In this document: positions 2,428-6,836 of the stretch, piece after piece
How positions within the stretch are numbered: the stretch's first letter is position 1
Layout: each line of letters starts with the position of its first letter
Assembly (NCBI GenBank): GCA_021414025.1
Contig: JAIOPG010000002.1
Span: forward strand, 682,001 to 746,000
Length of the DNA stretch: 64,000 bases
Direction of reading: 5' to 3'
Origin: Planctomycetota bacterium
GTDB lineage: Bacteria; Planctomycetota; Phycisphaerae; Phycisphaerales; SM1A02
Notes under the pieces: generated by a model
Databases searched by the model: none
What the model was told of the DNA's origin: nothing
The model's input: only the letters and a program-made list of their open reading frames with translations
Translations under genes and position numbers: made by a program

Positions 2428-3459
2428 ATGCGAATTGGAATGATCGGTCTGGGTCGAATGGGGGCGAACATGTGCCAGCGCCTGATGAAGGCCGGGCATG
2501 AGATCGTGGCCTGGGACATGAATGCCAATTCGGTGAAGGACCTGGCTGCAAAGGGTGCCATCGGCGCCTCCTCGATCCAGGACATGATCGCCAAGCTGCC
2601 CGCCCCGCGCGCCATCTGGATGATGATTCCGACCGCCTACGTCGACGAAACGATCGCCAAGATCGCGCCGCTGCTGGCCAAGGGCGACACGCTGATCGAC
2701 GGAGGCAACAGCTACTACAAGGATGACATCCGCCGCGCTAAGGAGCTCGCCGGCAAGGGCATCGACTATGTCGATGTGGGAACCTCCGGCGGTGTCTGGG
2801 GACTGGAGCGCGGCTACTGCCAGATGATCGGCGGACCCGCCGAGACGGTGAAGCGTCTCGACCCGATCTTCAAGGCGCTGGCTCCGGGCAAGGGAACCAT
2901 TCCCGCGACGGAGAACCGCAAGAACCGCGCCGGCACCGCGGAGCAGGGCTATCTGCACTGCGGCAACAGCGGCGGCGGACACTTCGTGAAGATGGTCCAC
3001 AATGGCATCGAGTATGGAATCATGGCGGCCTACGCCGAGGGCCTGAACATCATCAAGCATGCCGACGCGGGGCTGCACGAGCGAGAGAAGAGCGCCGAGA
3101 CCACCCCCCTTCGCGATCCGGAAAACTATCAATATCAGTTCGAACTTCCGGACATCGCGGAAGTGTGGCGCCGGGGCAGCGTGATCAGCAGCTGGCTGCT
3201 GGATCTCACCGCCAACGCGCTGGCGGAAGACCCGCAGATGAGCAAGTACGCCGGCCGGGTCAGCGACTCGGGCGAAGGCCGATGGACGATCGACGCCGCC
3301 GTGGCTGAGGGCATTCCGGCGCACGTGCTGACCGCGGCGCTCTACACACGCTTCGCCAGCCAGGGCCAGGCTCTCTTCGCCGACAAGCTCTGCTCGGCGA
3401 TGCGCAAGCAGTTCGGCGGTCACGACGAGCTTCCCTCGAAGCCGGGCGCCAAGGCATGA
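2428..3459 (+). CDS. gnd: 6-phosphogluconate dehydrogenase, decarboxylating (short GntZ/YqeC type)
   Basis: The enzyme oxidises and decarboxylates 6-phosphogluconate to ribulose 5-phosphate in the pentose phosphate pathway. The 343-residue product has the Rossmann motif [10 protein letters not shown] at residues 5-14, the substrate motif [18 protein letters not shown] and the catalytic stretch [12 protein letters not shown]. Its length fits the short bacterial subfamily rather than the 470-residue dimeric form. I chose the ATG at 2428 because AAGGAG lies seven bases upstream and the Rossmann motif starts at once. An in-frame ATG at 2371 would add 19 unrelated residues. Its stop overlaps the zwf start by four bases (ATGA), so the two steps are translationally coupled. 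Confidence 0.95.
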
Positions 3460-4856
3460 ACGGCAAACCGCAATGCGACGCGATGGTGCTCTTCGGCGCC
3501 AGCGGCGACCTGGCCCACAAGAAGCTCTTCGACACCATCCAGGCCCTGATCCGCCGCAATGTGCTCAACGGCCCGGTCATCGGCGTCGCCAAGAGCAGCA
3601 TGACCAAGGAGCAGATGCTGACGCGGGCACGCGAAGGGATCACCACCTATGGCCGCGGCGTGGACGAGGCCGCCTTCAAGAAATTCTCCGAGCAGTTCCA
3701 GTATGTCGATGGGGACTACGCGGACCTCTCCACGTTCCAGGCGCTCAAGAAGGCCCTGGGCAGCGCCCAGCGCCCGCTGCACTATCTTGCGATTCCCCCC
3801 GTGCTCTTCGGCGCCGTCACCAAGCAGCTCGAGGCCTCGGGGTGCGCCGAGCATGCGCGGGTGGTGGTGGAGAAACCATTCGGCCGCAACACTGCCAGCG
3901 CCAAGCAGCTCAACGCCACGCTGCACGAAGTCTTCGACGAGGCGCACATCTTCCGCATCGACCACTACCTGGGCAAGGAGGCGACGCAGAACATTCTCTT
4001 CACCCGCTTCGCCAACTCCTTCCTGGAGCCGCTCTGGAACAGCCACTGGATCAAGCAGATCCAGATCACCATGGCGGAGAGCTTCGGCGTGCAGGGGCGC
4101 GGGGCCTTCTACGACTCGACCGGCTGCATCCGCGACGTGATCGAGAACCACCTCATGCAGGTGGTGGGCTTCCTCTGCATGGAGCCGCCGGTCTGGACCG
4201 ACATGGAGCGGGTGCGCGACGAGCAGGTGAAACTGTTCCGGGCCATCCGCACCCTCACCACCCGCGACGTGGTGCGCGGACAATTCGATGGCTACCTGAA
4301 GGAGCCGGGCGTGGCCCCCAACAGCATGACCGAAACCTGGGGCGCCGTCCGCCTGGCCATCGACAATTGGCGCTGGAACGGCGTGCCGGTCTACATCCGC
4401 GCCGGCAAGTGCATGCCCATGTCGGCGACGGAGGTGCGCGTGGAGTTCCACCGCCCGCCCAATGTGGTTTTTCCCGATGCGCCGCCGGGGCCCCACAATT
4501 TCGTGCGCTTCCTCTTCAGCCCGCGCATCGAGATCGGCATCAACATGCAGGCCAAGATCGACGGCGAGGTCATGGGCGGCATGCCCATCGAGCTGATGGC
4601 CGTCGACGCGCAGCCCGACGAGATGACTCCCTACGAGCGGCTGATCGGCGACGCGATCCGCGGCGACCAGGCGCTCTTCGCACGACAGGATGCCGTTGAA
4701 GAAGGATGGCGCATCGTGGAGAACATTCTGGACAACGCGGTGCCCATCATGAAGTACCAGCCGGGCACCTGGGGGCCGGAGCCCGCCAACGAGATCCTGA
4801 TGCCCGAGGGCGGATGGCACTCACCGCAACTCTCGACGGCGCCGAAGGGCGGTTAG
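3456..4856 (+). CDS. zwf: Glucose-6-phosphate 1-dehydrogenase
   Basis: This enzyme catalyses the first step of the oxidative pentose phosphate pathway, producing NADPH and 6-phosphogluconolactone. The 466-residue product carries the nucleotide-binding [11 protein letters not shown] at about residues 14-24 and the active-site signature RIDHYLGKE at about 168-176, followed by the conserved C-terminal G6PD domain. Length is normal for the family. It overlaps gnd by four bases, so flux into and out of the oxidative branch is likely set by one transcript. The lactonase gene (pgl) is not next to it. The tRNA-Leu gene follows on the same strand. Confidence 0.96.
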
Positions 4857-4903: not shown

Positions 4904-4988
4904 GGGACCGTGGCGGAACAGCAGACGCAGCGGACTTAAAATCCGCAGTTGAGAAATCGACGTGTGGGTGCAACTCCCACCGGTCCCT
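4904..4988 (+). tRNA. tRNA-Leu, anticodon UAA, atypical D/T-loop elbow
   Basis: A class II cloverleaf can be drawn by hand. The acceptor stem is GGGACCG/CGGTCCC. The D-stem is GCG/CGC, the anticodon stem GCGGA/TCCGC with loop CTTAAAA (anticodon TAA), the variable arm GTTGA-GAAA-TCGAC, and the T-stem GTGGG/CCCAC. CCA is not encoded. The T-loop reads TGCAACT, so position 55 is G instead of the near-universal U. The D-loop is one base short and lacks the GG pair. The discriminator base appears to be T rather than the A normally recognised by leucyl-tRNA synthetase. All stems are intact, which argues against a decayed pseudogene. Confidence 0.75.
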
Positions 4989-5054
4989 CTTGCCGGCCCG
5001 TTGACGCGGCGCTTCGACGAGTCCACGTAGGGGCATTGATAGGATGAGCCTTCC

Positions 5055-6836
5055 ATGGGCGACGCCAAATCCCAGAAAAATCCGGCCGCCCCCCATCCGC
5101 TGGACCGCCCGCTGGTGGTGCTGGCGACAAACCAGCCCTGGGCCGCCGATCTGCTGCGGCTGGCGCTGAGCGACGCCGCCGCGCAACTCGAGATCATTCC
5201 CCGCGACGAGCATTCCATCGAGCGGATCGTGCGCTTCGCGCCGACGGTGATCGCCGTGGAGCTCTCGGAGCCGGGAGCCCAGGGATTCGACTTGCTCCGC
5301 GCCTTGGCGGCCAACGCCGACACGAAGGACACTCCCTGCGTCGCCATGGCGGCGCTGCCCGATCCACTGATCCGCACCGCGGCCTTCGCGGCCAAGGCCG
5401 AGGAGTTCATCTCTCGCATGAGCGATCCCGCCGAAGTCCGCTCGCGGGTGGGGACGCTGGCCAAGCTGGGCATGGCCCAGTCGCGGGAGCGCCAGGCCGA
5501 GGCGGAGATCAACGAGCTGCAGAAGCGCCTGAACGAGCGTGCCCATTCGCTTACCGACAGCGAGCGCCTGGTGACACATCTGCAGAAGTCGCTGGTGGTC
5601 GACGGGCAGCTGCATCGCAACCGCGTCGACGGACTGGTCGCGGTCGGCATCGAGCTCAACAAGGTGCAGGACATCCATCTGCTGATGGACCGGATCCTGA
5701 GCGAGGCCCGTCAGCTCATCGGCGCCGACGCGGGGACCATCTTCATCACCGAACAGAATGTGCTGCGCTTCGCCTACACGCAGAACGACACGCTCTCGCG
5801 GCGCTCCCCCAAGGTCGATTCGCCGCGCCTCTCCAGTTACCTGCTGCCCGCCGGCGCCGGATCGATCGCCGGATGGGTGGGCGTGAGCGGCGAGAGCATC
5901 AACATCCCCGACGCGTATGCATTGGATCCGGGCAGCCCCTTCCAGTTCGACGCCTCCTTCGACCGGCTCACCGGCTACCGCACCCAGAGCGTGCTGGCCC
6001 TGCCGCTGCGCACCAGCCTGGGCCGCGCCGTGGGCGTGCTGCAGCTGCTCAACGCCATGGACAGCGAGGGCCGCGCTCGACCGCGCTTCACCGACGCCGA
6101 CCAGGCCCTGCTCTCGCACTTCGCCAGCATCGCGACGGTGGCGATCGAGCGCACCCAGCTGACCGAGAGCATCATCACCCGCATGCTGCGGATGACCGAG
6201 ACCCGCGATCCCATCGAGACCGGGCAGCACATCGACCGCGTCGCCGGCATCTCCGCAGCGCTCTTCGAGGAGTGGGCGCACCGGCGCGGGCTCTCCGGCC
6301 CCGCCTTCGAGCGGCAGCGCGACCGGCTGCGGATCGCGGCGCGGCTGCACGACGTGGGCAAGATCGGCATCTCAGACACCATCCTGAAGAAGACGGAGAA
6401 GCTGGACCCGAGCGAGTACGAGATGGTGAAGCGCCACGTGCTGATCGGGGCGCGCTTCTTCCTGGACCAGCCGACGGAGTTCGACGAGTCCTCGCGCGAC
6501 GTGGCCCTGAACCACCACGAGCGCTGGGATGGCGGCGGCTACCCCGGCTATGTGGACCTGGACGGCAAGCTGCTGCTGGATCCGGTCACCAAGCAGCCGC
6601 GCCTTGGCGGCAAGAAGGGCGAGGACATTCCCCTCTTCGCGCGGGTGGTCTCGCTGGCTGACGTCTTCGACGCCCTCTCGAACAAGCGCTGCTACAAGGA
6701 GGCGTGGGCGGAGCGCCGCGTGCTGGACACGATCCGCGGCGAGTCGGGCAAGCAGTTCGACCCGGAGCTGGTGGAGATCTTCTTCGCCAAGCTCTCGGTG
6801 ATCCGCGACATCCGCCAGCTGCATCCGGACGCCTGA
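5055..6836 (+). CDS. Pseudo-receiver - GAF - HD-GYP protein, probable c-di-GMP phosphodiesterase
   Basis: The 593-residue protein starts with a degenerate receiver (about 18-140). The phosphorylated Asp is replaced by Glu69 (VIAVELSEP) and the usual C-terminal Lys-Pro is missing. A short helical linker follows, then a GAF sensor domain (about 200-345) and an HD-GYP domain (about 370-585) with the His432-Asp433 pair in RLHDVGKIG and GGGYP at 493-497. HD-GYP proteins hydrolyse cyclic di-GMP. It lies directly upstream of the Wsp-like genes, in the position where Pseudomonas has the receptor gene wspA. A hairpin and a promoter-like element separate it from them, so co-transcription is uncertain. 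A -10-like TAGGAT lies at 5040-5045. Confidence 0.9.
   Translation: MGDAKSQKNPAAPHPLDRPLVVLATNQPWAADLLRLALSDAAAQLEIIPRDEHSIERIVRFAPTVIAVELSEPGAQGFDLLRALAANADTKDTPCVAMAALPDPLIRTAAFAAKAEEFISRMSDPAEVRSRVGTLAKLGMAQSRERQAEAEINELQKRLNERAHSLTDSERLVTHLQKSLVVDGQLHRNRVDGLVAVGIELNKVQDIHLLMDRILSEARQLIGADAGTIFITEQNVLRFAYTQNDTLSRRSPKVDSPRLSSYLLPAGAGSIAGWVGVSGESINIPDAYALDPGSPFQFDASFDRLTGYRTQSVLALPLRTSLGRAVGVLQLLNAMDSEGRARPRFTDADQALLSHFASIATVAIERTQLTESIITRMLRMTETRDPIETGQHIDRVAGISAALFEEWAHRRGLSGPAFERQRDRLRIAARLHDVGKIGISDTILKKTEKLDPSEYEMVKRHVLIGARFFLDQPTEFDESSRDVALNHHERWDGGGYPGYVDLDGKLLLDPVTKQPRLGGKKGEDIPLFARVVSLADVFDALSNKRCYKEAWAERRVLDTIRGESGKQFDPELVEIFFAKLSVIRDIRQLHPDA

Follow-up and report, generated by a model that had tools for sequence, protein, structure and literature searches.

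A tRNA-Leu(UAA) with A18 and G55 in its elbow, shared across a planctomycete genus, and the recurrence of this base combination in bacterial and viral tRNAs

The window, the whole 64,000-nucleotide stretch of planctomycete DNA that was analyzed, contains a tRNA-Leu(UAA) gene located between genes for glucose-6-phosphate dehydrogenase and a protein with GAF and HD domains (Table 1). The tRNA gene is recognized by ARAGORN, which calls a tRNA-Leu(taa) at 4904-4989, and by the Rfam tRNA model RF00005 (4904-4988, 52.7 bits). The pairing count agrees with the original prediction of five well-paired stems including a five-base-pair variable arm: the acceptor stem (7 bp), the D stem (3), the anticodon stem (5), the variable arm (5) and the T stem (5) consist of standard pairs throughout. 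The z score of the RNA fold is -3.85, and the lowest-energy single-strand fold differs from the full cloverleaf. The cloverleaf with a long variable arm and a UAA anticodon is that of a tRNA-Leu(UAA), and neither the broken stems nor the unconstrained drift of a pseudo-tRNA are observed. The leucine identity is assigned on the basis of orthology, anticodon and synteny; base 73 is not used for this purpose.

Table 1. Features of the tRNA-Leu(UAA) locus (positions within the window)
Feature	Position	Strand	Basis
Upstream neighbor, glucose-6-phosphate dehydrogenase	3456..4856	+	Pfam G6PD_N and G6PD_C; matched in 14/14 genus loci
tRNA-Leu(UAA), complete, CCA not encoded	4904..4988	+	ARAGORN, Rfam RF00005
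Acceptor stem, 5' strand (partner 4981-4987)	4904..4910	+	pairing count
D arm; stem 4913-4915/4926-4928; D loop AACAGCAG, base 17 absent	4913..4928	+	invariant in 14/14 genus members with the gene
A18 in place of G18	4920..4920	+	sequence, alignment
G19, kept, pairs with C56	4921..4921	+	sequence, alignment
Anticodon arm; anticodon TAA at 4937-4939	4930..4946	+	ARAGORN, pairing
Long variable arm, 5 bp; compensatory changes within the genus	4948..4961	+	pairing, alignment
T arm; T loop TGCAACT at 4969-4975	4964..4980	+	sequence, pairing
G55 in place of U55/Psi55	4970..4970	+	invariant in 14/14 genus members with the gene
Acceptor stem, 3' strand	4981..4987	+	pairing count
Discriminator T73; A73 in 13 other genus members	4988..4988	+	alignment
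Downstream neighbor, GAF and HD domain protein	5055..6836	+	Pfam; matched in 14/14 genus loci

When the bases of the D loop are numbered in the register that keeps the G19-C56 pair, base 17 is absent and the elbow consists of A18, G19, G55 and C56. One part of the canonical elbow, G19 with C56, is present, and the other, G18 with U55 (Psi55), is replaced by A18 with G55; because G19 is retained, it is one of the two contacts between the D and T loops that has changed. The G at position 55 of the T loop (TGCAACT) is as originally described. The D loop had been described as one base short and devoid of the GG pair: base 17 and the GG are indeed missing, but G19 is kept. The lack of base 17 is by itself not odd given that the canonical relatives L062 and L063 lack this base as well. 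We define here an A18-G55 class as tRNAs that combine A18 and G55 and keep G19, U54, C56 and A58, and the sequence of this tRNA-Leu shows all these features.

A search for this tRNA over 61 genomes (the window genome and 60 others) produced matches in 53, including 14 of the 16 genomes of the genus; no match was detected in two genus drafts, G003 (73% complete) and G009 (91% complete). All 14 genus genomes with the gene share the D loop AACAGCAG and T54-G55-C56, the T loop being TGCAACT in 13 and TGCGAAT in one. The comparison with orthologs in related planctomycetes, which had been proposed as a check, thus finds an identical elbow in every genus member that has the gene. These 14 genomes contain 6 distinct sequences of the tRNA, with stem changes that affect both partners of the alignment pairs 31-39, 46-57, 48-55 and 49-54 and an unchanged elbow. 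The flanking genes are kept at all 14 loci, and the identity of the glucose-6-phosphate dehydrogenase is 73-86% in the 13 relatives. A sequencing error at the elbow, the concern raised along with the original prediction, is rejected because 14 separate assemblies would not share one and the same error, and the identical elbow in these 14 genomes likewise argues against a pseudogene. Outside the genus, the loci of 16 relatives were taken, of which 15 were called by ARAGORN and read (L061-L070, L072-L076); the elbow is canonical in all 15, and base 17 is already absent in some of them, e.g., AATGGCAG in G016. Because these relatives are canonical and some already lack base 17, the sequences are most simply explained by a swap from G18-U55 to A18-G55 at or before the base of the genus, on an ordinary short D loop.

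The window genome (2.80 Mb in 8 contigs, 97.5% complete) contains 47 RF00005 matches, only one of which is read by ARAGORN as UAA; a second UAA isoacceptor, in particular a canonical one that would have made the present copy redundant, was not found among these 47 matches. One weak match (L046, 29.5 bits) is not called by ARAGORN. On the fetched stretches, ARAGORN identifies five tRNA-Leu genes, with the anticodons UAG, CAA, CAG, GAG and UAA, and the first four all have the canonical elbow and A73. The UUA codons are rare, as had been anticipated, yet in use, with 17 occurrences among 43341 codons of 123 predicted ORFs, a count that is based on a simple choice of ORFs, some of which might be false, and includes 2 codons counted twice via overlapping loci. 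A UUA codon in the CheA gene corresponds to a leucine of one CheA of solved structure (L of AATLSDQE) and to a methionine of another; this single codon, compared with solved relatives, gives no sign of UUA recoding. The genome encodes both TruB and LeuRS, and a loss of TruB is therefore rejected.

The rarity of UUA and the presence of T73 in the window genome alone are what would be expected of a decaying, dispensable tRNA that has been drifting since this codon became so infrequent. Such decay is nevertheless very improbable: the elbow does not vary in any of the 14 genus members that carry the gene, even though their stems show compensated changes, no other UAA isoacceptor was found in the window genome, and the single UUA codon checked, that of CheA, occupies a leucine or methionine position.

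The T at base 73, present at position 4988 as originally noted, appears to be a different matter. LeuRS requires A73, and this base is found in all 13 other genus members. Because T73 is confined to the window genome, it lies outside the coordinated change, so that among the altered features that had been pointed out, only those at positions 18 and 55 can be considered coordinated. T73 is a change separate from the elbow swap and could have arisen by mutation in recent times or through faulty assembly; if it is no error, a tRNA-Leu with this base might be aminoacylated inefficiently or with the wrong amino acid. U73 is also found in tRNA-Ser(UGA) and tRNA-Ser(GCU) of the window genome, and its presence in tRNA-Ser(UGA) of 16 out of 16 genus genomes (loci L742-L757) indicates that it is normal for some serine tRNAs in this genus. 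Given that the local SerRS presumably accepts U73 and that tRNA-Leu and tRNA-Ser both have a long variable arm, T73 might cause partial mis-serylation and render UUA ambiguous in this one species. This scenario is quite improbable considering that T73 might be an assembly error or neutral, that leucine and serine tRNAs differ in other features, and that the single checked UUA codon is at a Leu/Met position.

Coordinated replacement of bases 18 and 55 is not limited to this genus. A pattern scan of 334 Planctomycetota genomes identified 9 Leu-type A18/G55 tRNAs in 7 genomes and no Leu-type A18/U55 tRNAs; for scale, 40 of these genomes yielded 132 Leu tRNAs with G18/U55, in 39 genomes. Among type I tRNAs of the same 334 genomes, a pattern that requires A18 but accepts G as well as U at position 55 matched 40 tRNAs in 24 genomes, with G55 in all 39 that were listed, and the type I G18/G55 pattern had no matches. 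A scan of GTDB genomes for Leu-type tRNAs with G55, with base 18 left free, detected 96 stretches, of which 80 were listed; the loci of all 96 were then read. The 60 distinct Leu-type G55 tRNAs called by ARAGORN, those of the genus included, have A18 in 56 cases and G18 in none, and the remaining 4 have a still shorter D loop. This count leaves aside the 19 of the 80 listed stretches that are not called by ARAGORN, where A18 was read by eye in 5, AGG in 13 and TGG in one (L078). Judging by the titles of the records, the hits presumably belong to Patescibacteria, Omnitrophota, Opitutae/Opitutaceae, Chloroflexi, Acidobacteria, cyanobacteria, Actinomycetota and Planctomycetota, some of the phyla being taken from the names.

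Several A18/G55 tRNAs have other anticodons. Long-variable-arm tRNA-like genes with A18/G55 in L082, L087, L136 and L153 (Acidobacteria by title) and in L132 (Defluviicoccus) contain a loop that by eye resembles a UGG anticodon loop, and only L136 is called by ARAGORN, as Pro. The cyanobacterial L119 and L148 each encode a long-variable-arm tRNA with A18/G55 and a CCU anticodon that is called tRNA-Arg. Possibly orthologous A18/G55 tRNAs are present in several genomes and families of planctomycetes, namely Arg CCG (L730-L732), Thr UGU (L718, L723-L726, L728, L740) and Thr GGU (L719-L722, L729), with the anticodons read by eye from type I pattern matches.

Viral contigs contain 57 stretches (62 matches) that fit the Leu pattern with A18/G55 and 9 that fit it with A18/U55; of the latter, only L244 has, by eye, an ordinary length and anticodon arm. 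The viral Leu pattern with GG and G55 is found in at least 120 stretches; by hand counts from the printed loops, an A precedes the GG in 110 of the 121 listed matches and is lacking in 11, compared with 21 of the 123 listed G18/U55 matches that have such an A. Most of the listed viral GG/G55 matches have no normal anticodon arm and are the tRNA-like elements described below. With the viral type I pattern, A18/G55 is found in at least 120 stretches, A18/U55 in 87 and G18/G55 in 19. Exceptions to the covariation are more numerous in viruses, where, in absolute numbers, they are not rare.

Running ARAGORN on 711 loci yielded 3193 distinct tRNAs, from which a non-target set was obtained by removing the tRNAs of the window genome and of its relatives along with all those that fit one of the search patterns. 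In this set, the 366 tRNAs with G55 include 336 with A18, 10 with GG, 16 with YG and 4 with none of these, and the 1898 tRNAs with U55 include 1814 with GG, 14 with A18, 37 with YG and 33 with none; GG is also found in 31 of the 33 tRNAs with C55. GG was scored first, hence AGG is counted as GG. The 336 A18/G55 tRNAs are not independent, coming from 66 contigs most of which were picked for holding one such tRNA; on the contigs picked because they contain U55 tRNAs or the tRNA-like element, A18 accompanies G55 in 5 of 7 cases and GG accompanies U55 in 1006 of 1047. The original suggestion that positions 18 and 55 changed together, and not by decay, is strongly supported by the fixation across the genus and the recurrent A18/G55 covariation. 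The 336 tRNAs span 19 amino-acid types, with serine absent.

This breadth also bears on a function outside translation. The staphylococcal cell-wall tRNA-Gly has a G at position 55 and is shunned by translation, and by analogy with this precedent, the planctomycete tRNA-Leu might serve as an amino-acid donor. Such a role is scarcely credible because UUA in the window genome would be left with no known reader and because the same swap occurs in non-target tRNAs of as many as 19 amino-acid types.

Some contigs carry arrays in which A18-G55 tRNAs comprise most of the scored tRNAs: 34 of 38 in L159, 33 of 36 in L217, 18 of 18 in L187, 17 of 20 in L162, 15 of 19 in L118, 16 of 17 in L165 and 10 of 11 in L143. 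The G55 tRNAs represent 17 isotypes in L159 and 16 in L217. HNH and PhoH genes were recognized on the latter contig, which is viral (3 of its 16 ORFs tested), a ParA-like gene adjoins the array in L159 (2 of 8 ORFs tested), and the four ORFs tested in L118 had no match. The A18-G55 arrays occur on both viral and bacterial contigs, including those of planctomycete genomes (e.g., G244). Given that five array-holding genomes have 52 to 85 RF00005 matches each, the arrays are probably additional to the normal tRNA set. No cultured phage with an A18-G55 elbow was found: in the examined stretches of phiCbK, Alice and Cp1R7A-A1, all of which hold tRNA clusters, none of the 72 tRNAs called by ARAGORN has G55. 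The 12 tRNAs clustered on 20 kb of an uncultured phage of 595 kb lack G55 as well, so that position 55 is canonical throughout these four phage stretches.

The existence of such arrays on viral and bacterial contigs, the planctomycete G244 among them, makes it conceivable that the elbow of the tRNA-Leu has its origin in a mobile or viral array, from which transfer or gene conversion would have brought it, and not in a change at the locus itself. An import is unlikely, however, because the stems and the anticodon arm resemble those of the canonical tRNA-Leu(UAA) of sister genera, with 84% identity to G029/L061 over the tRNA, and because the locus is syntenic across the genus.

The viral scans additionally revealed a tRNA-like element with a G55 T arm, which is present in at least 120 viral stretches (L248-L367), as well as in L091, L121 and L259, and in Enterococcus phage EG-TP1 (PQ571292.1, 67-141; L758). 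Among the 121 listed matches, the acceptor-like stem has 7 of 7 pairs in 82 and 6 pairs in 22, and the Leu-type D arm contains TAGGT in 93. The middle part consists of 30-52 nt and, by eye, lacks a normal anticodon arm. Twelve Firmicutes examples of the element have no Rfam match at the gathering score. In EG-TP1, the element is unannotated, and the gene gp1 for a transcriptional activator is some 245 bases away. This element is possibly a new phage RNA class.

Altogether, these comparisons suggest that the gene encodes a working tRNA-Leu(UAA), the sole one of the genus, in which the elbow would be locked by A18-G55 instead of G18-Psi55 while G19-C56 is kept; we put the probability of this reading at about 0.8. 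As judged from its sequence, the tRNA is a member of a recurrent natural class of A18-G55 elbows. Because other bacteria and clusters of viral tRNAs show the same paired replacement, A18-G55 looks like a real alternative way of locking the L shape of tRNA, and the covariation of A18 and G55 points to a physical contact between bases 18 and 55 in this class. In the canonical elbow, base 18 stacks between bases 57 and 58 and bonds to Psi55 (PMC4810234). A18, which is still a purine, would probably insert between bases 57 and 58 of the T loop in the same manner as G18, and its amino group is predicted to form hydrogen bonds with O6 and N7 of G55; the stacking and the hydrogen bonding together would preserve the L shape. 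With no U55, formation of Psi55 by TruB would be impossible, and with no G18, so would be formation of Gm18 by TrmH, so that both modifications are expected to be absent. The tRNA is presumed to be charged with leucine and to decode UUA.

The G18-Psi55 pair is termed invariant (PMC6337575) and Psi55 universally conserved (PMC4810234; PMC7912444). The A18-G55 elbow does not appear in the accessible parts of PMC4810234, PMC7609411, PMC7912444, PMC7566577 and PMC6337575, and is not described in the open literature searched; key subscription papers, including those on suppressor selections, are beyond that search. A natural, recurrent and covarying replacement allows a direct test of the role of the 18-55 contact and of Psi55, adds a tertiary covariation that can be used by tRNA models, and provides a scaffold for modification-independent tRNAs. 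More tentatively, A18-G55 may be a second general solution for the elbow that is free of Psi55 and Gm18: viral and other mobile arrays would have converted most of the tRNA set (16-17 isotypes on two contigs), perhaps escaping host modification enzymes or host factors that read the elbow, and some cells would have moved essential tRNAs to the same solution. Wholesale use of A18-G55 by viral tRNA sets, if real, might indicate that hosts possess factors which recognize the standard elbow.

Compared with the canonical bacterial tRNA-Leu(UAA), the genus tRNA has the same cloverleaf, long variable arm and anticodon, the same U54, A58, G19 and C56, and stems close to those of sister genera; it differs in A18 and G55 and, in the window genome only, in T73. 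The staphylococcal cell-wall tRNA-Gly has G55 in common with the genus tRNA-Leu, which, unlike the former, is the only isoacceptor found for its anticodon, UAA. Zagryadskaya, Kotlova and Steinberg reportedly selected, in 2004, suppressor tRNAs with altered D and T loops, and the elbow is said to tolerate other base combinations; these suppressors are laboratory selections, whereas the A18-G55 tRNA-Leu is natural. Like the genus tRNA, tRNA-Pyl and type II mitochondrial tRNAs are natural, working tRNAs without the G18-Psi55 contact (PMC7609411). In these tRNAs, however, both motifs, G18 G19 and TPsiC, are missing (PMC7609411), in contrast to the genus tRNA-Leu, which keeps G19, C56 and the remaining core, the 18-55 pair alone being swapped.
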